Assembly: GCA_005889405.1 (NCBI GenBank)
Contig: VBFY01000062.1
Coordinates: forward strand, 1-59,710
Length of the DNA: 59,710 nucleotides
From: Chloroflexota bacterium
Lineage (GTDB): Bacteria > Chloroflexota > Limnocylindria > P2-11E
Reading direction: 5' to 3'
The notes under the pieces are model-generated. The model searched no databases. It saw only the letters and a list, made by a program, of their open reading frames with translations, and was not told the origin of the DNA. Below are positions 29,348 to 45,872 of this stretch, piece by piece. A program made the translations under genes and the position numbers. Every line of letters starts with the position of its first letter. The stretch's first letter is position 1.

Positions 29348-29796
29348 GCCGCATCGTTGCGCCGCTCGCCACGGTCGTGCTCATCGCGATCGGTGCGATC
29401 GAGGCGCGCGTGAGCGCGCAGCAGCTCGCGGAGACGGTCGGGCGCCCGCGCCTCGAAAGCGCGGGCGTGATGCTGACCGCCGCGGGTCTGCTCGCGAGCA
29501 CGGTCGTCTACCTCGTGCTCGGCCATCTCGCGGAGAACGACCGCGTGGCGCTGCGCGCCGGTGCGCTCACGGGCGCGCTCGCCGGGCTCATCGGTGGCAC
29601 GGCCCGCGCCTTCATCATCGACGACCCCGTCTCGGATCTCGTGACGCGATACGCGTCGGTCCCGGATTGGTTCGTTCCCGCGGCGCTGGCGGTGTTCGTC
29701 GCGCTCTCGTGCGCGGGGAGCGCGGTGGGCGGTGCGGCGCTCGCGTGGACCGGACGCAGACTCAGTCGAGCCGCGCGGTCGCGACCTCCTGCCTGA
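29344..29796 (+). CDS. Small integral membrane protein
   Basis: 150 residues with about four hydrophobic helices (VAPLATVVLIAIGAI, VMLTAAGLLASTVVYLVLG, RAGALTGALAGLIGG, WFVPAALAVFVALSCAGSAVGGAAL). No family recognised. The GTG at 29344 overlaps the MFS stop (GTGA), so the two are translationally coupled and may function together. Its 3' end overlaps the convergent HD-GYP gene by 35 bases. Confidence 0.7.
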   Translation: MSRIVAPLATVVLIAIGAIEARVSAQQLAETVGRPRLESAGVMLTAAGLLASTVVYLVLGHLAENDRVALRAGALTGALAGLIGGTARAFIIDDPVSDLVTRYASVPDWFVPAALAVFVALSCAGSAVGGAALAWTGRRLSRAARSRPPA

Positions 29797-30709
29797 CGCG
29801 CTCGATGCTGCCGTCCGCCTGCAGCGACTGGAAGATCGCGACGACCTCGGGGTCGAATTGCGCGCCAGAACCCGCGATGACCGCAGCCATGCCCTCTTCG
29901 ATCGACCACGCGGTCTTATACGGCCGCTTCGACGTGAGGGCATCGAAGACGTCGGCAACGGAGACGATCCGCGCGGCGAGCGAGATCCCGTCGCCCTTCT
30001 TCCCGTCTGGGTAGCCGCGCCCGTCCCAGCGCTCGTGATGCTCGCGCGCGATCGCGCGCGCGGTCTCGAAGAAGCGCGCGTCGCCGAGCATCACCTCGCC
30101 GTCGATGCAGTGCTGCTTGATGACCTCGAATTCCTCGGTCGAGAGGTGGTGCTCGCTCTGGAGGATGTGGTCGGGCGTGTGGATCTTGCCCACGTCGTGC
30201 ATGACGCTCGAGTAGCCGAATTCCTCGACGACCTGCGGCGGCAGCCCGAGACGCGTGCCGATCGCCTCGACATACTTCCGAACGCGCAGGAGGTGCGCTC
30301 CGGTCGTCTGGTCCTTGATCGTCGCGGCCAGAAGCAGGTGGCTGATGCCCTGAAGACCGGTGCGCCGGAGCTCCTCGTTCGCGATGCGCTCACTCTCGAG
30401 TGCGGTCTCGAGCTGCTCGCGCCGCTCGCGTTCGCTGCGCAGCATCTCGGCGAGATCCTCGGCGTACCGCGTGCTCTGCCGTTCGAGGAGGCGCATCTCG
30501 CGCAGCTTCGTCTCGTACTCGAGGCGCACTGACTGCTCGCGGCGGTAGACCTCGGCGAAGTCGCTTGCCATGCGGACGGCTTGCGAATTCGCCTGGTCCG
30601 CGACGCGGATCGCCTGCTGCAGCAGCTGGCGGAAGACCTCGCCGGCGACGGTCGAGCCCGCCTGCGGCACGCTGATATGGGGAGAGACTTCGATCACTTC
30701 GATCGACAT
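29762..30709 (-). CDS. HD-GYP cyclic-di-GMP phosphodiesterase with coiled-coil N-terminus
   Basis: 315 residues. Residues about 50-120 form a long charged coiled coil (RREQSVRLEYETKLREMRLL and onward), residues 120-315 an HD-GYP domain with intact MHDVGKIH (His171-Asp172) and HHERWDGRGYPDG. It should hydrolyse cyclic-di-GMP to pGpG or GMP. No receiver is attached; the separate receiver gene just upstream (30741-31112) could regulate it in trans. Last gene of the leftward signalling operon. An alternative ATG at 30733 adds eight residues. Confidence 0.92.
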   Translation of the reverse strand: MSIEVIEVSPHISVPQAGSTVAGEVFRQLLQQAIRVADQANSQAVRMASDFAEVYRREQSVRLEYETKLREMRLLERQSTRYAEDLAEMLRSERERREQLETALESERIANEELRRTGLQGISHLLLAATIKDQTTGAHLLRVRKYVEAIGTRLGLPPQVVEEFGYSSVMHDVGKIHTPDHILQSEHHLSTEEFEVIKQHCIDGEVMLGDARFFETARAIAREHHERWDGRGYPDGKKGDGISLAARIVSVADVFDALTSKRPYKTAWSIEEGMAAVIAGSGAQFDPEVVAIFQSLQADGSIERVRQEVATARLD

Positions 30710-30740
30710 CCGCTCGGGCCTTTCCTCCGGCACGGCTGGA

Positions 30741-31164: not shown

Positions 31165-31869
31165 TTAGGCGCCACGGACGAGCACTTTCCCCCCGCGCGG
31201 GGAGGTCGGGCCCTGGCGCGTCCACGAATCCAGCGTCACAAGGCCGAGTCGAGCGGCCTCGGCGACCGCTTCCAGGCGGGAGTGCGCGCCAAGCTTCCGG
31301 AGTACCGCCTGAACGTGCGCGCGAAGCGTGGCCGTCGAGATGCCGAGGGCCGCGGCGGCCGTGGCGGTACTTGCTCCGCTCGCGAGCAGATGCAGGACCT
31401 CGAGCTCGCGCGGCGTGAGCGGTTCGGTCGCGGTCGCGGGCTCGCTGCGTTCCGAGAGCAGCAGGCGCTGCAGCTCGCTCGACGAGAACAGCACCTCGCC
31501 CGAGGCCGCGGCGCGCACCGCACCGACGACGTCGTTGAAGCCGCGCTCCTTCGTGAGATGTCCGGAAGCACCGGACCGCGCGACGTCCGCGAGCGTGTAC
31601 GCGCTGGGATCGCCCGTGAGGACGACGATCGCGACCTGCGGGAGCGACGCACGCACCGCGCGGGCGAGATCGGCGCCGGTGCCGTCGGGCAGGTGGTAGT
31701 CCGCGAGTACGACGTCGGGTCGGGCCTCGTCGAGCGCGGCGATAGCGCTGCGCAGATCGTGCGCCACGGCCACGACATCGATGTCGTCGGCCTCGCGCAT
31801 CGCGACGCGGAGGAGCTCGGCGAAGAGCCGCTCGTCGTCGACGATCATCACGCGCACGCGGTCGCTCAC
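31165..31869 (-). CDS. NarL/LuxR-type DNA-binding response regulator
   Basis: 234 residues: N-terminal receiver (IVDDERLF, Asp in VVLADYHLPDG, Lys in GHLTKERG) and a C-terminal LuxR helix-turn-helix (LTPRELEVLHLLASGASTATAAAALGISTATLRAHVQAVLRKL, by landmarks LTPRELEVL and STATLRAHV). It is the only obvious DNA-binding protein of the signalling operon and the likely transcriptional output. GTG 31869 overlaps the stop of the receiver/HD-GYP gene (GTGA). Confidence 0.94.
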   Translation of the reverse strand: MSDRVRVMIVDDERLFAELLRVAMREADDIDVVAVAHDLRSAIAALDEARPDVVLADYHLPDGTGADLARAVRASLPQVAIVVLTGDPSAYTLADVARSGASGHLTKERGFNDVVGAVRAAASGEVLFSSSELQRLLLSERSEPATATEPLTPRELEVLHLLASGASTATAAAALGISTATLRAHVQAVLRKLGAHSRLEAVAEAARLGLVTLDSWTRQGPTSPRGGKVLVRGA

Positions 31870-33194
31870 TGCTCCGCTTCCTGACCGGCGGTGCGCACCT
31901 GCGCGGCGAGTGCCGCGACCACCGCGGGATCCAGCTCGCCGCGACCGACAGCCCCTTGAAGGATGCGCACGGCCTCCGGCTCCGAGACCGCGGCGCGGTC
32001 CGGGCGATCGGCGAGGAGCGCCTCGAAACGATCGGCAACGCTGACGACGCGGACCTCGAGCGGGATCTTCTCGGCAGTGAGGTGATCCGGATAGCCATGC
32101 CCGTCGAGGCGTTCGTGGTGCCAGCGGATGATCGGCAGGATCGGCGCGAGCGGCGTCACGCGGCGGAGAAGGTCCTCGCCGAGCAGCGGGTGTTGCTCGA
32201 GCGACTCGCGCTCGTGGGCGGTGAGCTCGCCGGCCTTGTGCACGATCGGTGGCGGCAGCTTCGCGTTGCCGATGTCGCGCAGCAACGCGCCGAGCCGGAT
32301 CGTCCCGACCGCCGCCTGGTCGAGCCCGAGCAACCCCGCGACCGAGACCGCGCGCGCCGCGACGCGCTCGCTGTGACCCATCATGAACCGGTCGTGCGCC
32401 TCGAGCGACGTGGCGAGCGTGATGAGCGCATCGGCCGCCGCGCCCATGTCGCGCACGAGACGCATCTCGCGCACGAGGAGCTCGGCGTGACGCGCGAGAT
32501 CGCCGTCGAGCCGCGCGAACTCGGCCGCCGGGGTCTCCGAGCCCCTGGCGATCACGAGGATGGCGGCGCCGTCATCGGCGAGGTCGCGGTCCGGCGTCGC
32601 GCTGTCGTCGACGAGGATGAGATCCACGGCGACCGAGCCGTCCTGGATGATGTCGAACCGCGGTGCCAGCAGCTTCTCCGCCTCGGCGCGGCGCGCCGGG
32701 TCCTTGAGCGTGATGGCGGCAACCGGCCGGCCGCGTTCCGGACGCTCCGCCTGTGGCTCGAGTCGCGGCGGGCGCGCGTTGCGCGACTGCAACAGCACGG
32801 CGTCGATCCGGGCCAGGAGCTCCGCGGCATTCCAGGGCTTGGTCACGTAGTCGGCCGCGCCGCACGAAAGACCGCGCACCTTGTCGACGACCTCGCCCCG
32901 AGCCGACAGGAAGATCACGGGGATGTGCGCGATCGAGCCGTCGCTCTTGATACGGAGGCACACGTCGTAACCGTCGGTATCCGGCAGCATCACGTCGAGC
33001 AGCACCAGATCGGGGACGATCTGACGCACGAGCGCGAGGCCCTCGCCACCGTCGCGACCGACGACGACCTTCATACCGTTCGCCTGCAGCCGGCGCTGAA
33101 GGACGTCGGCCGACGCCGGATCGTCTTCGACGACCACGACGCTCGTCGGGATCGTCGAGGATCCGGGTGGCATCGTCACGGCGAAGTCTTTCAC
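31866..33194 (-). CDS. Receiver plus degenerate HD-GYP protein
   Basis: 442 residues: a receiver (VVEDD, Asp67 in LVLLDVMLPDTDGYD, Lys in YVTKPWNAAE), a linker of about 110 residues and an HD-GYP domain. The GYP part HHERLDGHGYPDHL is intact and HSERVAARA, EQHPLLGEDLL and SVADRFEAL are kept, but the HD motif reads RDIGN (Arg306-Asn310) instead of HDxGK. Loss of the metal-binding His predicts a non-catalytic or altered enzyme, perhaps a cyclic-di-GMP receptor. ATG 33194; its end and start overlap the flanking genes by 4 bases. Confidence 0.92.
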   Translation of the reverse strand: MKDFAVTMPPGSSTIPTSVVVVEDDPASADVLQRRLQANGMKVVVGRDGGEGLALVRQIVPDLVLLDVMLPDTDGYDVCLRIKSDGSIAHIPVIFLSARGEVVDKVRGLSCGAADYVTKPWNAAELLARIDAVLLQSRNARPPRLEPQAERPERGRPVAAITLKDPARRAEAEKLLAPRFDIIQDGSVAVDLILVDDSATPDRDLADDGAAILVIARGSETPAAEFARLDGDLARHAELLVREMRLVRDMGAAADALITLATSLEAHDRFMMGHSERVAARAVSVAGLLGLDQAAVGTIRLGALLRDIGNAKLPPPIVHKAGELTAHERESLEQHPLLGEDLLRRVTPLAPILPIIRWHHERLDGHGYPDHLTAEKIPLEVRVVSVADRFEALLADRPDRAAVSEPEAVRILQGAVGRGELDPAVVAALAAQVRTAGQEAEQ

Positions 33195-33948
33195 TGCGCC
33201 ACGCTCTTCTGCTCCTCGCCGAGCAGATGACGCAGCGCGACGACGAATTTCGACGGACGCTCGTTCACCATGTGGTCGCGGATGTAGGAGTAGAGCTCAT
33301 CCGCCCAGCGCGGAAGCTCCTGGTACCACTTCACTTCGATGATCACACCGGGCTCGCGCGCGATGACCGGGCCGATCCGGCACGGGAGCGAGCTCTCGTC
33401 GTTGGCCACCCACGGCACCGCCAGGTACATGAGGTTGTGGTCCGCGGTGATGCGCATGCTCGCATCCGGCGCTGAGTACGCGATCCGGTTGTACTGCGTG
33501 ACCACGACCGGCCGGACTCCGCCCGCGATCGTCCGCTCGGCGCGCTCGACGAGGCCGTTCTCGTCGCGCGGCAGCTTCTGCTCGCCGCGGAGGTACGCGG
33601 GGAGCGACATCGTCGGCACCTCGTAGCGCTCCTTGAACGACGTGCTCGCGGAGTCGTCCTTCATCTCGAGGTACACGGATGCACCCGCGAGGATCTCGTT
33701 CGGCCTCGTGCGGTGATACTCGCGGACCCGGAGCTGGAGCGCCTGCCCGGCCTCGGCGGACCGAAAGATGCGCCAGTCGTAGCTGTCGAGGTACGCCGTC
33801 GTCGACCACTGATAGGGCCGATCGTCGCGGTCGAGCGGCAGGTACGTGCCGCTGGTGCGGAGCGCGAGTCGGGCGACGGCCTCGTTCACCAGAAAGCGGT
33901 GCTCGTACCGACGTGCGCTGTCACTGGTCGCGTCGAGGACGATGTTCT

Positions 33949-33952
<4 letters not shown>
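33191..33952 (-). CDS. VTC-domain (polyphosphate polymerase-like) protein
   Basis: 253 residues forming one VTC tunnel domain: YEHRFLV, STTAYLDSYDWRIFR, the paired arginines LQLRVREY, acidic/lysine strand YLEMKDDSASTSFKER, QYNRIAY, MRITAD, IIEVKW and C-terminal SKFVVAL. These correspond to the basic and acidic residues that line the yeast Vtc4 catalytic tunnel, so polyphosphate synthesis from ATP is plausible. There is no TM segment and no SPX domain. Bacterial VTC proteins usually sit beside DUF4956 or CotH genes; here it is embedded, with 4-base overlaps, among two-component genes. Confidence 0.88.
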
Positions 33953-35498
<1,546 letters not shown>

Positions 35499-35502
<4 letters not shown>

Positions 35503-37814
35503 GACCGTACCGCCGTCGCCGCGCCCGCGAGCCCGCCATCGGCGAGCGCCGTGGCGCGCACGCGTACTGGCAACGTGAACAGGAAGCTGCTGCCGACGCC
35601 CACCGTGCTGTCGACCCAGATACGGCCGCCGTGCAGCGCGATGAGGCGCTTCGAGATCGCAAGGCCGAGGCCGGTCCCGCCGTAGCGGCGTGTCGTGGAC
35701 GCGTCGACCTGGCGGAACTCATCGAAGATGTACGTCTGCGCTTCCGGCGGGATGCCCACGCCGGTGTCGACCACGCCCAGGGTGATCCACCCGTCGACCA
35801 CCGTCGCCCGGATCGTGACGCCACCGTGCTCGGTGAACTTCACAGCGTTCGCCACGAGGTTCACGAGCACCTGGCGGATGCGCGCGCGGTCCGCCCACGC
35901 GGCCGGCAGTGCGCTCGCGACGTCGGCGCGGAGGCTGAGCGCCTTCGCATCGGCGCTCGCCCGCATCAGCTCGATGACGTCATCGACGACGAGCGGGATG
36001 TCGACCTCCTCGACGTTGAGCTCCATCTTGCCGGCCTCGATCTTCGCGAGGTCGAGCAGTCCGTTGATCAGGCTGAGAAGGTTGTCGGCGGCCTGCACGA
36101 CACGCTCGAGGTCGGCGGTCTGCTGCTCGGTGAGATCGCCGTCGAGCCCGTCGAGCATCAGCTTCGTGTAGCCGATGATCGCGTTCATCGGGGTGCGCAG
36201 CTCGTGGCTCACGGATGCGAGGAACTCGCTCTTCAGACGGTTCGCGCGCTCGAGCTGCAGGTTGTTGTCTTTGAGCTCGTTGACGAGATCCGCGTTCTCC
36301 TTCGCCACGCTCACGAGACGGGCGATGGTGCGCAGCGCGCGCGCCTCCGTGTCGGTGATCTCGCGCGGCCTCTTGAAGTACGCGGAGAGGAGGCCAGCTG
36401 CGCGGCCGCGAGCGGACAGCGGGATGTGCGCGACGTGCGGCATCGGGCTCTGTGGCACGTGCAGGTGCTGGATCTGGTTCGGGTCGTAGACCGGATTCAC
36501 CAGGACCCGCGTCGCGAGCATGACGGCCGTGTCTGGGTCGATGCCGATCGTCGTCGGCGCGATGAGCCGGCCGCCGGATCCCAGCGGCGCACCTGGTGCG
36601 TCCTCGCGGATGACGATCGACGCGCCGTCGGCGTGGAACAGGGCGACCATACGTGACAACGACTCGGCGAAGATTCGCTCGCGGTCGGTGACACCGACGA
36701 CGGCGTCGGCCACTTCGTTCACCGTGCGGACCTCAGCGAGGTATTCCTGCTGTGCACGCTCACGTTCGCTCAGCGACCGGGCCATGGTGTCGAACGCGCG
36801 CTCGAGCGTGCCGATCTCGTGATGCGAGCGCTGGCGGATGCGCACGCCGAGGTCTCCGGCTTCGATCTGCTGGGCGGCGGCCGCGAGGTCCTCGAGCGGC
36901 CGCGTCATCGCCGTGGCCGAGCGGTACGCGAAGAACGTGACGAGCGCGATCAGGCTGGCCGCGAGGACGAACAGGATCACGAGCAGCGTCCGCTGCGAGG
37001 CGTTCAGGGCGTCGAGCGGCAGCAAAACGGCCAGCACCCCGAGATTCGCCCGCTGTCCGACGACCTGGAAGATGCCGTAGTAGCTCCTCCCGCCGATCGT
37101 CACGTCCTGCACGAAGACGTCGCGTGGGGCGCCGTCGACCTGCTCCAGCGTCGGGAAGACCGTGTCGTCCGGCAGGGACGTGGTGTACGCACGCACCTTG
37201 CCGTTCCAGATCAGCGCGAGCTGCGCGTCGCTCTTGGTGTTGATCGTCTTGAGGTAATCGTTTCCGAGGATCGTGCCGACCTCGAGGAAGCCTATCTTCT
37301 CGACGTCGGCGCCCCGGATCTCCCAGATAGCGCGGATCACGAGGCCCCGCCCCGGTTCGTCGGACAGGATCCACGACTGTTGCACGCCCGCCTTGGCGTC
37401 GACGACAAGCTGCGGCAGCAGCGTCTCCCCCGGGACGAAGTCCTGAGCGCCGGCGACAAGGACTCCGTCCTTATCCGCCACGCTCATGAACTGGACTCCC
37501 AGGCGCGATTTCTGCGGCAACAGGAATGCCTCGAGCGCGCTGCGGTTCTTCGCCTCCGCGAGCTCGCGCGTCGTCGGTAGGCCGGCGATCAGGGACGCCG
37601 CCCGCAACGCCAACGACGCCTGGTCCTGGATGTCGTTCTTCGCGGCGACCGCGACGATGCTTGCCTCGTCTTCGAACTGCTTCGCCACGAGATCGTTGGA
37701 TTCGTAGAGGGCGACGGCCGCGAGTACCACGAGGGCACCCACGGCCACCGCCACTGTCCGACCGACGAGCGCGCGAAGGAGACTCGGCGCGAAGAGCTGG
37801 TTGAGGAATTCCAC
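35499..37814 (-). CDS. Membrane sensor histidine kinase (dCache-HAMP-GAF-HisKA-HATPase)
   Basis: 771 residues from GTG 37814, which has AGGA eight bases upstream. TM1 (about 16-38), an extracytoplasmic dCache-like domain of about 240 residues, TM2 (LLVILFVLAASLIALVTFF), HAMP (RPLEDLAAAAQQIEAGDLGVRI), a GAF-like domain with DPNQIQHLHVPQSP, HisKA with His537 (SHELRTPMNAIIGY), and HATPase with NLVANAVKFTE, DTGVGI and GGTGLGLAISKR. It starts 11 bases after the stop of the PstS-like gene, so that lipoprotein may present its ligand to the sensor domain. Confidence 0.93.
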
Positions 37815-37824
37815 GAAGACCGTC

Positions 37825-38664
37825 CTAGAGGCCGGCCAGGATCTTCTGCCCCTCGGCACCCTTCACGAAGTCGATGAAAGCCTTGATCGTCGGCTTCACC
37901 TTTGCCGGCTCCGGGTGGTACACGAAGTACAGGGGACGCCGGATCGGGTAGGTGCCGTTCGCGAGGGTCTCACGGGTCGCGGCGATGTTGTCGATCGTGA
38001 GTAGGCCCACGTCGACGGTGCTGAACGCCTTCGCGTTCATCGTCATCATCCCGATCGCGTCCTTGAATGAACCAATGGCCTTGAGCGTCTCATCGATCTG
38101 GAACACCTCGACGGCGTCCTTTGCGTACGCCGGCTTGGTCGAGCCGAAGAAGTACGACTCGAACGCCGAGCGCGTCGAGGACTCGGGCTCGCGCAGCAGC
38201 ACGCGGATCTTGCCGGGCGTGCCGCCGACGTCCTTCCAGTCCGTGATCTGGCCGGTGAAGATCTTCGCGACCTGATCCTTGGTGAGCGCCTTGACCGGGT
38301 TCGTCGCGTTCACGCCGACGCCCGTGCCCGATGCACCGATAGCCACGGTCTCGACGGTGCCCTTCTCAGGGGCCTTGAGGTCGCGGCTGATGAAGCCGAG
38401 GTCGACCGTTCCGCTGACGGTGAGCGACACGCCTGCGTCTGACCCAACGTCGTCAAATCCCTGCCAGATCACCGTCGGGTGGACGGCTGAGAATCCTGAG
38501 GTCAGCGCTTTCACGGCGTCGAGCGCGCCGCCGCCGCCCTTGGTGACGTAGGTCCCGGCGAGCGGATCGGCGGTCGGTTTGCTGGCGATCGGGCTGGCAC
38601 CGCCGCAGCTCGCGGCGAACAGCGCCGCCAGGGCGATGTACAGGCATTTGCGCAGAAGCGTCAT
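37825..38664 (-). CDS. PstS-like phosphate-binding lipoprotein
   Basis: 279 residues. Lipobox FAASC (Cys about 20), then a type-2 periplasmic binding fold as in PstS of Gram-positives: YVTKGGGGALDAVKALTSGF, LGFISRDLKAPEKG, NPVKALTKDQVAKIFTGQITDWKDVGG, and the phosphate-contact region LLREPESSTRSAFESYFFG. ATG 38664 has AGGA upstream. It is the first gene of the signalling operon and no PstC, PstA, PstB or PhoU gene is adjacent, so a sensory rather than transport role is likely. Phosphate is inferred; another oxyanion is possible. Confidence 0.9.
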   Translation of the reverse strand: MTLLRKCLYIALAALFAASCGGASPIASKPTADPLAGTYVTKGGGGALDAVKALTSGFSAVHPTVIWQGFDDVGSDAGVSLTVSGTVDLGFISRDLKAPEKGTVETVAIGASGTGVGVNATNPVKALTKDQVAKIFTGQITDWKDVGGTPGKIRVLLREPESSTRSAFESYFFGSTKPAYAKDAVEVFQIDETLKAIGSFKDAIGMMTMNAKAFSTVDVGLLTIDNIAATRETLANGTYPIRRPLYFVYHPEPAKVKPTIKAFIDFVKGAEGQKILAGL

Positions 38665-38725
38665 GTTGTCCTTGTCCTCCAGGGCCGGCGCCATGCCGGT
38701 TAAGCCAATTGCGGGAAGTGTGGCT

Positions 38726-40199: not shown

Positions 40200-42005
40200 T
40201 TAGTACTCGCCGCCGGTGCCTTTGCGAGGGCCCTCGAGCAATTGGCCGACGCCGCGTTGCTCGCCACGTAGCGCGTCGAGCACACGAAGCGCTTCGTCGA
40301 TGGTGAGACCGCGCCGGAAGTCGTCGAGCGCCGGCCGCAGCTCCGGCGATGCCTGCGCGTTCGGGTCGGTCGAGTTCGTCGGATCGCTCGTCGGCTCCTG
40401 CGGCTGCCCGGGATTCTGGCCGGGCTGCGCCGACGCCCCGGCGCTCGGCTGACCACTCTGTGCCGGGCCCTGCGCGCCGGGATTCGGGCTGCCGGGCTGT
40501 CGGGGTCCCGGGCCGGACTGCTGGCCCGGTTGCGCCGGCCGGGCCGAGAGGATGCGCTGGACGATCTCGAGGTTGAACTTCGCGTCCCGATCGGTCGGAT
40601 CCATGCGCAGCGCCTCGCGGTACGCGTCACGCGCGTCCTCGTACCGACCCATGCGGAAGAGCGTGTTCCCCCGGTCGTACTGCGCGATCGCGCGGAGATG
40701 CAGATCCTTTCCGTCGATGGCCTTGCCGTACTCCGCGAGCGCGCGGGGGTATTCGGCCATCTTGTGGAGCGCGTTCGCAGCGTTGATGGCGAGCTCGGGC
40801 AAATCGGGCTGGTCCAGCTGCAGATCCCTATATGCCGCCAGCGCTCCGGCGTAATTGCCGCCCGCGAACAGGCCGTTCGCGGTCTCATTCGAAAGCGCGG
40901 CGTCGCCGCACGCGATCGCCCACAGCGCGGCGGAGCCGATCGCGATGCCGAGGATGCGGCGTCCGCGGCGCGCGGCCGGCCGGCCGAGACCGCGCGGCGA
41001 GGGCATCGCGCGCCGCTCCGAGATGAGCCACTCGAGCAGCAGCAGCGCGACGGCGATGGTGACCATCGGCGCGGATCGTTCGTCGGGTACCGAGCCCGCG
41101 TCGTCGAGCGGCTCGACGGCCTCCATCGTGCGCAGCGCGCGGGCGAGATCCCCGATCACTCCGTCGTTGCCGATGTAGTGGAAGTAGCTGCCGCCGCCCT
41201 TGTCGGCGACCGACCGTAGCGTCTCCTCGACGAGGTGGGTCACCACGGGGACGCCGCCGGCATCGCGCAGGTAGCCCGTGAACTTCCCGTCGTTCGCGTC
41301 GTAGGTCGGGATCTGGCCACCGGCCTCCGTGCCGACGCCGACCGTGTAGATGCGCGCGCCCACGAGGTCGCTGGCCTCGGGCACGTCGCTGTTCGTGATC
41401 TCACCGTCGGATACGAGCACGATCGCACGCTGCCGTAGCGGATCGAGATCGGCCGGAAACGCGCCGAGCGATGACTCGAGACCCGAGCGAAGCGAGGATC
41501 CCTGCTGAAGCTTCACGCCGCGCCCCGAGTTATCGAGGACCTCACCGAGGATGCGCGGATCCGTTGTCGCCGGATACCGCACGGTCCCCTGGCCGGCGAA
41601 GAGCACCAGCGCGACGCGGCTGCCGATCATCTGGCGTCCGAGCTCTTCCGCGAAGTGACGCGCGGCGCGCAGTCGGTCGGGCTCGACATCGCGGGCGGCC
41701 ATGCTCTGCGATACGTCCACGGCGAGGACGATGTCGACGCCCAACCTGCGAGCCGCGCGCGCGCGCAGGTCGACGTACGGACCGGCGAGCGCGATCACCA
41801 GGCTCGCGAGCGCGACGAGGAGGAGCGCCGACTTGAGCAGCCAGCGCGCACCACTGCGCGAGACCAGCGGCGTCGCGCCGCCGAACGATCGCAGCGCGCG
41901 GATGCGCGCGCGGTACGCAAGCGTGACGAGCGCCGCGACGAGCGGGACCGCAAGGAGGAGGAGCAACAGCTCCGGCCGCGCGAAGCCGACCGCGGGAAGG
42001 TTCAC
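40200..42005 (-). CDS. BatB/BatC-like fusion: VWA domain plus TPR
   Basis: 601 residues. Two N-terminal TM helices (LLLLLLAVPLVAALVTLAY; SALLLVALASLVIALAG), a von Willebrand A domain with MIDAS DVSQS (VLAVDVSQSMAARDVEPDRL), a third TM before about residue 330 and a fourth (ILGIAIGSAALWAIACG), then TPR units (YAGALAAYRDLQLDQPDLPELAINAANALHKMAEYPRALAEYGKAI by landmark) and a Gly/Pro/Gln-rich linker before DEALRVLDALRGEQ. It joins BatB and BatC in one chain. Last gene of the MoxR cluster, overlapping BatA by 4 bases. Confidence 0.88.
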   Translation of the reverse strand: MNLPAVGFARPELLLLLLAVPLVAALVTLAYRARIRALRSFGGATPLVSRSGARWLLKSALLLVALASLVIALAGPYVDLRARAARRLGVDIVLAVDVSQSMAARDVEPDRLRAARHFAEELGRQMIGSRVALVLFAGQGTVRYPATTDPRILGEVLDNSGRGVKLQQGSSLRSGLESSLGAFPADLDPLRQRAIVLVSDGEITNSDVPEASDLVGARIYTVGVGTEAGGQIPTYDANDGKFTGYLRDAGGVPVVTHLVEETLRSVADKGGGSYFHYIGNDGVIGDLARALRTMEAVEPLDDAGSVPDERSAPMVTIAVALLLLEWLISERRAMPSPRGLGRPAARRGRRILGIAIGSAALWAIACGDAALSNETANGLFAGGNYAGALAAYRDLQLDQPDLPELAINAANALHKMAEYPRALAEYGKAIDGKDLHLRAIAQYDRGNTLFRMGRYEDARDAYREALRMDPTDRDAKFNLEIVQRILSARPAQPGQQSGPGPRQPGSPNPGAQGPAQSGQPSAGASAQPGQNPGQPQEPTSDPTNSTDPNAQASPELRPALDDFRRGLTIDEALRVLDALRGEQRGVGQLLEGPRKGTGGEY

Positions 42006-42970
42006 GGCGTCCTCCGGAAGACCGTGAGCGCCAGAAGGAACTGCAGCGCGAGAAGTCCGGCGCCGGCCGCCGCGAATGGCAGCGACGCGTCCTCGGTCGA
42101 GATGAAGGCACGCGTGCCGACCCGAGCCTTCTCGAGCGTCTCAATCTCGCGGTACACATCACGGAGCGCGGTCTCGTCGGAGGCCCGGAAATAAAGGCCG
42201 CCGGTCGTCTCGCTCATGCGCTTCATGAGCGCCTCGTCGACCTCGGCGCGCGAGCGCGCCGCGACGGCGCCGATCGTGTACAGGCGCACGCCGAGCAGCT
42301 TCGCGATCTGCGCCGCGTCGGTCGGCTGCACATCGCCGGCGTTGTTCTGCCCGTCCGTGAGGAGGATCGCGACCTTGCCGCGCGCCGAGGATTCGCGCAG
42401 CAGATTGAGGCCCGTCGCGAGCCCGGTCCCGATGGCCGTTCCGTCCCGAAGCGGACGGCCCGCCGTCACCGGCTGGACGAGGCGCTGCGCCGCGCCGTAG
42501 TCCAGCGTGAGCGGGCTCAGCACCATCGACTCGGCGCTGAAGATGACCACGCCGACGCGATCGTTCTTCAGGCCGTCGAGGAAGTCGTTGACGACGCGCT
42601 TGACGACGTCGATCCGCGGCTGGCCGCCGAGGTCCGGCGTGGTCATCGACGACGAAGTGTCGAGGACGATGACGATGTCGATCCCCTCTGCCGGAACGTC
42701 GAACGCGGCCTGCACGACGGACGGAGCGGCCAGCGCCACGATGAGCGCGGTCGCGGCCACCACACGCAGGGGCAGCAGCAGCCACCGCAGACGCACCCGC
42801 CAGCTGCCGCGCGCCCGCGGAACGAGCCCGAGCGAAGAGAACAGCACGCCGCCGCCTGGGCCGCGCTCGCGACGCAGCTCCAGGGCCGCGGCGATCACGA
42901 CGAGCACGAGCAAAGCGAGCGCCCACGGCGCGTCGAAGCGGACCTCCGTCCCGAGGATGCGCGCGCTCAT
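42002..42970 (-). CDS. BatA-like VWA membrane protein
   Basis: 322 residues: N-terminal TM (APWALALLVLVVIAAALEL), a second TM (LLLPLRVVAATALIVALA), VWA domain with MIDAS DTSSS (IVIVLDTSSSMTTPDLGGQ), downstream Thr and Asp sites in LRDGTAIGTGLATG and AILLTDGQNNAG, and a C-terminal TM. It belongs with MoxR, DUF58 and BatB in envelope stress or metal-insertase-like complexes assembled by MoxR chaperones. Stop/start overlaps of 4 bases on both sides. Confidence 0.9.
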   Translation of the reverse strand: MSARILGTEVRFDAPWALALLVLVVIAAALELRRERGPGGGVLFSSLGLVPRARGSWRVRLRWLLLPLRVVAATALIVALAAPSVVQAAFDVPAEGIDIVIVLDTSSSMTTPDLGGQPRIDVVKRVVNDFLDGLKNDRVGVVIFSAESMVLSPLTLDYGAAQRLVQPVTAGRPLRDGTAIGTGLATGLNLLRESSARGKVAILLTDGQNNAGDVQPTDAAQIAKLLGVRLYTIGAVAARSRAEVDEALMKRMSETTGGLYFRASDETALRDVYREIETLEKARVGTRAFISTEDASLPFAAAGAGLLALQFLLALTVFRRTP

Positions 42971-43923
42971 TGCGGTCGGAGGGCGGCGATCTCGTACTCC
43001 TCAGCGGTGGCCGCGCGCCGCACCACCTCCAGCGCCTGGCGCACCGCGTTCTGCGCGTGCGCGGGATACGGGATCGCGTGGCGGAAGCGGACCTCGTCGC
43101 CCTCACGGAGGATCTCGTAGATCGCGCTCGCTTGCGCGCGGTCGACGCCCGCGCGCTCCATGGCGGCGCGAAGCTCGCGACTGGTGCGACCCGGGTCGAT
43201 GCCGAAACGTTGGACCGCGTACTGGCGCAGGCTCGCGGTGAGGAGCGCGTAGTGCTCGGCCGTCTTCCCCTTTTCCGGAAGGCGCTGCTCGGCGAGCGCA
43301 TCGAGCTCGCGCAGCGCGCGCTGCACCGGCGTGAGGCGCTCCGCGGCGGGGATGCGGTCGCGTCGCCTCAGCAGGACCCAGAAGATCACGCCGGCCAGCG
43401 CCGTGAACGCGGCCGCAGCCAGAACGCCGAGCGCGATGCGCCCGAGCTTCGCGGCGAGCGCCTCGGGTAGGTCGAGCTGCGGCTTCAGCGGTTTCACATC
43501 CGTCGTGTCCTCGCCGTCCTTGATGACTGACGCGATGTGGAGGACGAGCGGCGTCGTCGTCGCCACGCCGTTCTCGCCATTCGGCCCGGCGTACGGGATC
43601 GAGATGGGCGGGACGCTGATATCGCCGACGACCCACCCGGTGACCCGGTAGCGGAAGGTCCAGCGTGTGACGCCGCCGGGGCGGGTCGAGCGGCCGGACG
43701 GGAGGACCTCCAGGACCTCGAGATCGCCGACGGTGTGCGCGATCGTCGGGTCGCTGACCTGGTACCCCGCTTCCGCATCGGCGATCACCGTCAGGAACGC
43801 CCCGTCCCCGACGGTGATCGTGGTCCGGTCGAGGGTCGCCGCCGCGGTCACCGCATCGGCGGCGGCGGCCCCGCTCGCCATGACGAACGGCAACGCGAGG
43901 GCCAGCGTGAGGACGAGCCGCAT
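42967..43923 (-). CDS. BatD-like membrane protein
   Basis: 318 residues. Signal peptide (about 1-22, ending GAAAADA), two beta-sandwich regions (TLDRTTITVGDGAFLTVIADAEAGYQ; VTRWTFRYRVTGWVVGDISVPPISIPYAG), a TM helix (IALGVLAAAAFTALAGVIFWVLL, about 198-220) and a helical cytoplasmic tail that includes LTASLRQYAVQRFGIDPGRTSRELRAAM. Layout matches BatD/DUF4381 proteins of the aerotolerance-type cluster. ATG overlaps the DUF58 stop by one base (TGATG). Confidence 0.82.
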   Translation of the reverse strand: MRLVLTLALALPFVMASGAAAADAVTAAATLDRTTITVGDGAFLTVIADAEAGYQVSDPTIAHTVGDLEVLEVLPSGRSTRPGGVTRWTFRYRVTGWVVGDISVPPISIPYAGPNGENGVATTTPLVLHIASVIKDGEDTTDVKPLKPQLDLPEALAAKLGRIALGVLAAAAFTALAGVIFWVLLRRRDRIPAAERLTPVQRALRELDALAEQRLPEKGKTAEHYALLTASLRQYAVQRFGIDPGRTSRELRAAMERAGVDRAQASAIYEILREGDEVRFRHAIPYPAHAQNAVRQALEVVRRAATAEEYEIAALRPQ

Positions 43924-44846
43924 CAGTTGCGCCGCGTCCGCGCGTTGAACAGCGCCATGAGCGTGGGGACGAACGGTCGATCGGTGTAGAGGTCCACGCT
44001 GTCGATCTTCAGGCGCGCGAGGGCCTGCCGGCGCTCCGTACGTCGACGCCGAGCGGTGCTGGCGTACTCGTCGCGCAATCGTCCGTCGGCCGTGTCGACA
44101 TACGCGATGTGGCCCGTCTCGGCATCCTCGAGCGCGACGACGCCGACGTTCGGGAGCTCGAGCTCGCGCGGGTCGTTGAGCGCGAGTGCGATGACGTCGT
44201 GCTTCCGGCCGAGCATGCGAACCGCCGGATCGTCGACGAGGCCGACGTCGAGGAAATCGGAGATGAGGAACACCACGCTGCGTTTCTTCGTGATGTTCGT
44301 GAGGAAGCGGGCCGCGTCGGTCATCTCGGTGCGCACGCGGCGCGGCGGCGCGAACAGAAGTTCGCGGATCACGTGCAGGAGATGTTCGCGCCCGCGGCGC
44401 GAGGGCATCCATTCCTGGAGTCCCTCGGCGAAACGGAGGAGCCCGACGCGGTCGTGACTCCGCATCGCGGCCATCGCGAGCAGCGCCGCGACCTCCGCCG
44501 CGAGATCGCGCTTGCTCTGATCGACCGAACCGAACCACGACGACGCGGAGACGTCGACCGCCAGCAGGATGTTGAGCTCGCGGTCCTCGCGGAACTTCTT
44601 GATGAAGGGCGTGCCCATTCGAGCCGTGACGTTCCAGTCGATGCTGCGGATGTCGTCGCCCGGCTCGTACTCGCGCACCTCTTCGAACTCGAGCCCCGAC
44701 CCGCGGAAGACGCTCCGATAGGTGCCGAGCAGCGCTTCGTCAGCGAGGATGCGCGCCTTGATCTCGACCTGACGGATGCGCCGCAGCACGTTCGCTGGGA
44801 GGGCCTGATCGCCCTGGACGGCGTGAGCGCGTGCCGTGGCGACCAC
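43923..44846 (-). CDS. DUF58 domain protein
   Basis: 307 residues with the DUF58 core SGLEFEEVREYEPGDDIRSIDWNVTARMGTPFIKKFREDRELNILLAVDVS (landmarks YEPGDDIRSIDWN and LAVDVSASSW), which contains a VWA-like MIDAS. Proteins of this type partner MoxR ATPases. No TM segment here: soluble. The GTG at 44846 starts 2 bases after the moxR stop. Confidence 0.93.
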   Translation of the reverse strand: MVATARAHAVQGDQALPANVLRRIRQVEIKARILADEALLGTYRSVFRGSGLEFEEVREYEPGDDIRSIDWNVTARMGTPFIKKFREDRELNILLAVDVSASSWFGSVDQSKRDLAAEVAALLAMAAMRSHDRVGLLRFAEGLQEWMPSRRGREHLLHVIRELLFAPPRRVRTEMTDAARFLTNITKKRSVVFLISDFLDVGLVDDPAVRMLGRKHDVIALALNDPRELELPNVGVVALEDAETGHIAYVDTADGRLRDEYASTARRRRTERRQALARLKIDSVDLYTDRPFVPTLMALFNARTRRN

Positions 44847-44848
44847 GG

Positions 44849-45841
44849 TCAGGGGAGCGGGACCTTGTCCAGCACCTTCGCGATGACGGACTCGGGCGTG
44901 ATCTCCTCCGCCTCGGCCTGGTAGGTCACGATGAGACGGTGACGCATGACGTCCGGCGCGACGGCCTTCACGTCGTCCGGCAGGACGTAGTCGCGCCCTT
45001 CGAGGAAGGCGTTCGCGCGCGCGGCGAGCGAGATGAAGATCGACGCGCGCGGTGACACGCCGTACGCGATCATCGGTCGGAGCTCGCTCAGGCCGAATTG
45101 CTCCGGTTCGCGCGTCGCGAACACGATGCGCACGACGTAGTCCTTGAGCGAGTCATCCATATGGATCTGCTTCACCGCGGCGCGCGCATCGAGCACCGCC
45201 TTCGGCGAGGCGACGCGGCGGACCTGCGGGATCTCCCCGATCGTCTGGCGGTCCATGATCTCGCGCTCTTCCTGCTGTGAGGGATAGCCGATGACGACCT
45301 TCATCATGAAGCGGTCGACCTGCGCCTCCGGAAGGCGATACGTCCCTTCGTGCTCGATCGGATTCTGCGTCGCGAGCACCATGAACAGCTCACCGAGCGG
45401 ATGCGTGGTCCCGCCGATGCTCACCTGCTTCTCCTGCATCGCCTCGAGGAGCGCGCTCTGCACCTTGGGTGGGGCGCGGTTGACCTCGTCGGCGAGGAGG
45501 ATGTCGGTGAAGATCGGACCCAGTCGCGGCCGGAACGTCTGGTCGGCGGGGTTGTAGATCATCGTGCCGTTGAGGTCCGCCGGGAGCAGGTCCGGCGTGA
45601 ACTGGACGCGCTTGAAGCTCGCCTCGATCGTGTCCGACAGCGTCTTCACCGCGAGCGTCTTCGCGAGGCCGGGCACGCCCTCGATGAGCAGGTGACCGTT
45701 GCAGAGGAGTCCCAGCAGCAGCCGGTTCACGAGGTAGTCCTGGCCGACGATGACCTTACGGATCTCGTGCAGGACCGGCGCGATGAAGTCGCCGCGCCGC
45801 AGGACCGCGTCGTTCGAGGTCGGCGGCCGATACGTCTTCAT
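44849..45841 (-). CDS. MoxR-family AAA+ ATPase
   Basis: 330 residues. Walker A is the MoxR variant EGVPGLAKTL, Walker B ILLADEVNRAPPKVQSALLEAM, sensor-1 LATQNPIEHEGTYRLPEAQVDRFMMK. It acts as a chaperone that remodels the VWA partners encoded downstream. ATG 45841 is preferred because a TACGCT box (45851-45856) lies 9 bases upstream; the frame has another start at 45850. Head of the moxR-DUF58-batD-batA-batB/C operon. Confidence 0.95.
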   Translation of the reverse strand: MKTYRPPTSNDAVLRRGDFIAPVLHEIRKVIVGQDYLVNRLLLGLLCNGHLLIEGVPGLAKTLAVKTLSDTIEASFKRVQFTPDLLPADLNGTMIYNPADQTFRPRLGPIFTDILLADEVNRAPPKVQSALLEAMQEKQVSIGGTTHPLGELFMVLATQNPIEHEGTYRLPEAQVDRFMMKVVIGYPSQQEEREIMDRQTIGEIPQVRRVASPKAVLDARAAVKQIHMDDSLKDYVVRIVFATREPEQFGLSELRPMIAYGVSPRASIFISLAARANAFLEGRDYVLPDDVKAVAPDVMRHRLIVTYQAEAEEITPESVIAKVLDKVPLP

Positions 45842-45872
45842 CGCTCGCACAGCGTACTGGCTGGGTGTGTCG

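Follow-up and report, generated by a model that had tools for sequence, protein, structure and literature searches.

The window (the whole stretch of 59,710 nucleotides that was analyzed) contains an operon in which genes for a PstS-like lipoprotein, a membrane kinase, a REC-REC-kinase, a VTC-domain protein, a REC-HD-GYP protein, a REC-LuxR protein, a stand-alone receiver (REC) and an HD-GYP protein follow one another in this order, all on the minus strand (Table 1).

Table 1. Genes of the operon, listed in operon order, with the basis of each assignment.
Feature	Positions	Strand	Basis
PstS-like periplasmic binding lipoprotein	37825..38694	-	PBP_like_2, 109 bits; lipobox-like LFAASC by eye
Membrane sensor kinase: HAMP, GAF, HisKA, HATPase, weak dCache_3-like sensor	35499..37859	-	Pfam
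Soluble REC-REC-histidine kinase	33949..35502	-	Response_reg (two), HisKA, HATPase_c; conserved Asp and His
VTC-domain (triphosphate-tunnel) protein, predicted ATP-dependent polyphosphate polymerase	33191..33952	-	PF09359, fold, tunnel residues
REC with degenerate HD-GYP	31866..33194	-	Pfam; R/K-D for H-D, GYP retained
REC-LuxR (GerE) response regulator	31165..31869	-	Pfam
Stand-alone CheY-like receiver with unusual conserved LLDVDMGPGPNGF phospho-site loop	30741..31175	-	Pfam, alignment
HD-GYP protein, HD motif intact, predicted c-di-GMP phosphodiesterase	29762..30733	-	Pfam, alignment

The VTC ORF begins with ATG, ends with TGA and encodes 253 amino acids. It matched PF09359 (VTC, Pfam) at E = 2e-23 and 83.6 bits (cut-off 23), which bears out the original prediction of a VTC-domain ORF at this place, and it is the single VTC gene in the window's 3.05 Mb genome. 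The VTC domain was the sole Pfam domain in the protein; no SPX or transmembrane part was found in the 253 residues, and NCBIfam returned no match for it. The motifs quoted in that prediction were all present at the named residues: LRVREY (R75, R77), LEMKDD (E96, K98), YNR (R156), R-x-T-x-D (R167, D171), IIEVKW (E206, K208) and SKF (S234, K235). Their charged residues and the serine showed no variation across 16 orthologues, and in a set of 20 proteins (5 of the window's group and 15 from other Chloroflexota) 14 positions were invariant in 20/20 (Y54, D56, R75, R77, Y79, E96, K98, K107, R156, D171, E206, K208, S234 and K235). By sequence, the ORF is a member of the VTC family and a candidate polyphosphate polymerase.

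Both ends of the VTC gene overlap signaling genes by 4 bases, as had been read from the sequence: the kinase stop codon (TGA) and the VTC ATG share positions 33949-33952, and the VTC TGA and the GTG of the REC-HD-GYP gene share positions 33191-33194. The genes for the PstS-like lipoprotein and the sensor kinase overlap by 35 bases. Phospho-His and phospho-Asp sites of the relay were conserved in the alignment rows covering them, and the dCache_3 match of the membrane kinase was sub-threshold (19.4 vs 25.7). The idea that polyphosphate might serve as the phosphodonor gained no support, nothing having been found for or against it; both the HisKA/HATPase domains of the kinases and their phospho-His are of the normal kind. 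In the REC-HD-GYP protein beside VTC, the HD dyad was R/K-D in 16/16 orthologues and the GYP part was kept; given what is generally known of HD-dyad chemistry, this protein is likely to be catalytically dead and may have a binding or scaffold role. The dyad of the stand-alone HD-GYP protein was kept in 15/15 rows. The CheY-like receiver gave a weak cREC_REC match, and its LLDVDMGPGPNGF loop was present in nearly all rows, the contig-cut locus L030 having shown a paralogue.

The lipoprotein resembles the PstS family (TIGR02136) at 123.5 bits, under the 206.6 cut-off, and its gene adjoins that of a sensor kinase, as in PstS/Pho sensing. Unlike a Pst transporter locus, the operon has no PstC, PstA or PstB gene beside the PstS-like gene, and no PstC over cut-off was found in the window's genome (best 43.8 vs 196 bits), so that the PstS-like protein may work in sensing more than in transport. 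Because the PstS-like and PstC matches both lie under the NCBIfam cut-offs, phosphate is a weakly based assignment for the signal.

VTC orthologues (53-100% identity) were found in 16 of the 177 genomes of the class, the window's included: 4 in the window's genus, 10 in a second genus, 1 in a third and 1 in another family of the order. The carriers, uncultured soil Chloroflexi, are related and therefore represent few independent events, not 16. Within the limits set by contig ends, none of the 15 other loci departed from the gene order of the window, and the tight coupling of VTC to signaling genes proposed from the overlaps was thus kept across genera. When 84,980 species genomes were scanned with two patterns, 14 loci were returned, all in Chloroflexi metagenome-assembled genomes (sample depths of 20-40 cm for most; one was UBA4730). 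That this Chloroflexi group only was returned follows from the specificity of both patterns, and the scan has no bearing on VTC-beside-receiver loci elsewhere.

In two other genera (g2, g8), a gene encoding a 12-helix MFS protein lies between the kinase and VTC genes, occupying a kinase-VTC gap of about 1.5 kb that was seen in 11/15 loci. The protein, here called NTT-like, is 493-494 amino acids long in the three loci read. Its stop codon and the VTC ATG share 4 bases at L021/L048 (one genome); at the other gap loci a VTC start codon lies 1-12 bases beyond its stop. G127, the outgroup genome, has the PstS-like gene, two kinase genes and the MFS-like gene at the end of one contig and VTC onward at the end of another. 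The window's genus has no such gap, and its NTT-like gene is on another contig (G000:C89:26169-27647 in the window's genome); the copy in G139 is split over two frames. Since the MFS-like gene intervenes in g2, g8 and G127 (there across contig ends), the kinase-VTC junction of the window's genus arose secondarily, and the 4-base kinase-VTC overlap was ruled out as the ancestral arrangement. A TPR-like gene, with sub-cut-off Pfam matches, precedes the relocated NTT-like gene in the window's genus (L041:10008-11000, L042:2-1063).

At E<1e-160, the NTT-like gene was detected in exactly the 16 VTC genomes among the 177 of the class; a 17th genome, G058, contained no more than a distant relative (3.3e-19). 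In a 400-genome Chloroflexota sample, the 7 strong matches all belonged to this group, and weak matches occurred in 19 other genomes. The degenerate REC-HD-GYP was found in 17/177 genomes of the class, namely the 16 VTC genomes and G134, in which the gene begins at contig base 2, so that the place of VTC lies beyond the contig end. G141, a genome of the window's genus that is 97% complete, was without VTC, the NTT-like gene and the degenerate REC-HD-GYP. VTC, the NTT-like gene and the degenerate REC-HD-GYP act as one unit; the Fisher value (4.5e-23) ignores relatedness and was not taken as a probability. A view of VTC as an orphan without a membrane partner was ruled out by the presence of the NTT-like gene in all 16 VTC genomes.

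The MFS match of the NTT-like protein was weak at best, NCBIfam gave no match, and a profile of the family found no solved-structure relative by sequence. Its model (pLDDT 66, 11 sequences) has an MFS fold and was best fitted by AtNTT1 (Z 31.1, 3.2 Å, 413 residues; Z 30.4, 3.1 Å, 409 residues), followed by a tie between SotB, an unrelated MFS protein (27.4), and Chlamydia NTT1 (27.1); Foldseek also placed AtNTT1 first. PF03219 matched none of the partner proteins scanned, and for this reason they are named NTT-like and not NTT. Their detectable relatives are mostly longer proteins of NTT-HEAT or NTT-HEAT-cNMP type, and PF03219 was over cut-off in 4/6 relatives tested (L044, L129, L134 and L135; not L045 or L133). 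Compared with NTT proteins and NTT-HEAT fusions (PF03219), the partner is unfused and goes together with a VTC gene. NTTs and HEAT fusions are reported from free-living bacteria in PMC5381601, which describes the fusions as uncharacterized and lists Chloroflexi in one clade of unfused NTTs. The window's genome itself encodes, at L044:1903-4722 (G000:C102), a 939-amino acid NTT-HEAT-cyclic-nucleotide-binding fusion (PF03219 23.4 bits, cut-off 21) with a protein-kinase-like ORF immediately upstream.

PPK1, PPK2, DUF4956 and Ppx-GppA searches gave no match in the window's genome, and VTC is therefore its sole polyphosphate-synthase candidate among the families searched. Across the 28 genomes of the family, PPK1 was found in 1, PPK2 over cut-off in 2 and weakly in 6 more, DUF4956 in 0/28, and Ppx-GppA over cut-off in 0/28 and weakly in 2; the Ppx-GppA search found the family in 10/14 control genomes. 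The absence of Ppx-GppA leaves no evident route for re-use of the polymer and counts in some measure against a storage role. VTC had been said to lack its usual companions, and this stood for DUF4956; a companion nevertheless exists in the NTT-like MFS gene.

PF09359 was found in 38/400 Chloroflexota genomes, and neighborhoods were compared, using all reading frames, at 25 of the 33 VTC places outside the window's group. DUF4956 lay within 1.5 kb in 20/25 (the model was built from picked neighbors at the same loci, and Pfam confirmed 19/19), a REC or HK domain lay within 3 kb in 10/25, and the NTT-like gene was near 0/25. REC/HK density was 0.119 per kb within 3 kb vs 0.043 beyond, a crude figure from short stretches. 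The proposed search for further VTC genes beside receivers thus yielded other cases: a two-component context unique to the window's group was ruled out, and, with 10/25 other loci near REC/HK genes, proximity of VTC to two-component genes recurs. The window's group stands apart in having no DUF4956, an NTT-like partner and a large relay. At L089, another Chloroflexota VTC locus, nearby ORFs resemble PhoU/DUF47 and a PiT phosphate transporter by eye, a second phosphate link.

Structure prediction and superposition on Vtc4, which had been proposed as a check, were carried out; Vtc proteins fitted best and the catalytic residues aligned with the tunnel. The AlphaFold2 model of the VTC protein (pLDDT 87.7, 15 sequences) matched Vtc4 (3g3q_A) first in Foldseek (E 9.1e-15, vs 2.7e-8 outside the VTC family). 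In VIA-align 2, Vtc2, Vtc4 and Vtc3 led (Z 17.2-19.0 over the first seven rows; for 3g3r_A, Vtc4, Z 18.9, 3.4 Å, 227 residues), and CYTH-type ygiF trailed at Z 14.1. The fold is shared with ygiF, AtTTM3 and class IV adenylate cyclase (Z 11.8-14.1), and no family was excluded on the strength of these fold lists. In a search of solved structures with the single sequence, Vtc matches were marginal and a profile was required; the profile of 20 Chloroflexota VTC sequences covered the whole Vtc4 domain at E 4.7e-30.

Vtc4 residues were numbered by counting in the profile alignment (entry 5iiq, offset 3), a count that reproduces the R264/R266/E426 triple named in PMC9911596. Of 11 Vtc4 tunnel positions compared, 9 were identical in the VTC protein: R264 (R75), R266 (R77), K281 (K98), K294 (K107), R361 (R156), E426 (E206), K428 (K208), S457 (S234) and K458 (K235), the last being the equivalent of the catalytic lysine. 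The prediction of a complete set of tunnel residues therefore held for nearly all of them, and failed at K200 and K455, where the VTC protein has arginine (R19 and R232).

The tunnel fold could instead belong to a phosphohydrolase (a tri- or polyphosphatase or a nucleotide triphosphatase) acting to adjust a phosphorylated signal, a reading that agrees with the fold common to ygiF, AtTTM3 and class IV adenylate cyclase, with the change of K200 to arginine and with Ppx-GppA being under cut-off in 28/28 family genomes. VTC-family structures are nevertheless clearly the better matches by both programs, and the tunnel differs from that of phosphatases. As described in PMC4641920, phosphatase-type tunnels have an acidic patch (Glu-2, Glu-4, Glu-90 and Glu-171 in AtTTM3) that Vtc4 is without. 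Neither this patch nor the ExExK and ExE motifs of CYTH/TTM proteins were found in the VTC protein, in which the first strand reads R15-x-E17-x-R19 (vs ExExK), the last strand reads E206-x-K208 (vs ExE), and 3/4 acidic-patch positions appear basic (R15, K107 and K208, the correspondence of Glu-2 with R15 and of Glu-90 with K107 being inferred). K235 is also retained, whereas its AtTTM3 counterpart is reported to have little weight in phosphatase activity (PMC4641920). E17 is an acidic-patch position that is kept, which speaks for a phosphohydrolase and may leave room for a second metal site; an acidic residue is usual there in the bacterial VTCs compared (20-protein set). Since the patch is mostly basic, the sequence favors polymerase chemistry over a CYTH-like triphosphatase, the alternative named at the outset, and a phosphohydrolase appears unlikely.

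The preferred reading, given a probability of about 0.5, is a signal-controlled polyphosphate module in which a phosphorelay would run synthesis by VTC and the NTT-like protein would replace the usual membrane partner. The PstS-like lipoprotein and membrane kinase would sense something external to the cell, with phosphate as the likeliest signal, and the REC-REC-kinase, judging from its domains and phospho-sites, would pass phosphate to the receivers. REC-LuxR would then set transcription, the HD-GYP proteins would link the relay to c-di-GMP, and the REC-HD-GYP beside VTC would probably contribute a dead, binding-only domain. VTC would be translated in step with its neighbors, and its tunnel, given the fold and residues, would build polyphosphate by polymerizing the terminal phosphate of ATP. 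The NTT-like MFS protein, from its co-occurrence and predicted fold, would be the membrane partner of VTC instead of DUF4956, and would move the polymer, or phosphate or nucleotide used or released in the reaction; its gene would have adjoined VTC in the ancestral operon, and lies elsewhere in the window's genome. A fuller version, in which a VTC polymerase works with an NTT-fold translocator (with no DUF4956 or yeast channel), is run by a phosphate phosphorelay of its own and is the clade's only polyphosphate synthase, is tentative and rather less probable.

The same genes could also form a cell-surface or biofilm system making polyphosphate or a phosphorylated exopolymer under c-di-GMP-type control, and the two HD-GYP proteins and LuxR regulator of the operon would suit this, as would the sets of CotH, polyphosphate polymerase and DUF4956 genes beside Pel operons, with DGC/PDE genes in Bifidobacteria, described in PMC7112168. 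Exopolysaccharide genes were not found in the operon, however, DUF4956 is absent from the family (0/28) and the PstS-like gene points to phosphate, which makes such a system improbable. A hitch-hiking association, in which one regulatory operon houses VTC and the NTT-like gene but no common pathway joins them, agrees with the relatedness of all carriers, with signaling genes drawn from huge families and with the position of the NTT-like gene outside the operon in one genus, but is doubtful, since co-occurrence survived that relocation (4/4 VTC genomes of the window's genus keep the gene elsewhere) and the genome of that genus without VTC is also without the NTT-like gene.

The polyphosphate module preferred here is a variant of bacterial VTC systems. 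With the VTC-DUF4956 operons of Chloroflexota it shares PF09359, the invariant residues and, often, nearby REC/HK genes (10/25), and it differs from them in the linked membrane protein, NTT-like MFS vs DUF4956; CotH-linked VTC-DUF4956 operons are known from streptococci, clostridia and bifidobacteria (PMC7112168). With yeast Vtc4 (3g3q, 3g3r) it shares the tunnel fold and 9 aligned residues, but the SPX and transmembrane parts of the yeast protein were not found in the window's protein, K200 and K455 are replaced, and, whereas yeast VTC is controlled by inositol pyrophosphates, the window's VTC would be controlled by a bacterial phosphorelay. In the open-access literature searched, no account was found that links a VTC gene with receivers or with an NTT-like protein. 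Overall, the VTC tunnel, the coupling to signaling and the lack of DUF4956 survive from the original prediction; the setting near receivers is not unique, a companion exists in the NTT-like gene, and the phosphodonor idea gained no support.

Two reviews assign polyphosphate synthesis to VTC in eukaryotes and to PPK in bacteria (PMC12526157, PMC10657179). A bacterial lineage with VTC in a conserved operon, and with no PPK or Ppx-GppA match in the window's genome, offers a clean test of bacterial VTC polymerase activity. The group also bears on membrane handling of a charged polymer, or of the substrates for it, where the yeast channel is lacking, and the VTC-NTT-like pair bears on NTT-like roles outside parasites and plastids; if the proposal is true, a machine of VTC and an NTT fold would be the first concrete role for an NTT-like protein of free-living bacteria. 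Elsewhere in the window, positions 40200-45850 encode an aerotolerance-like cluster made up of a MoxR ATPase and VWA, BatA-like and TPR proteins.
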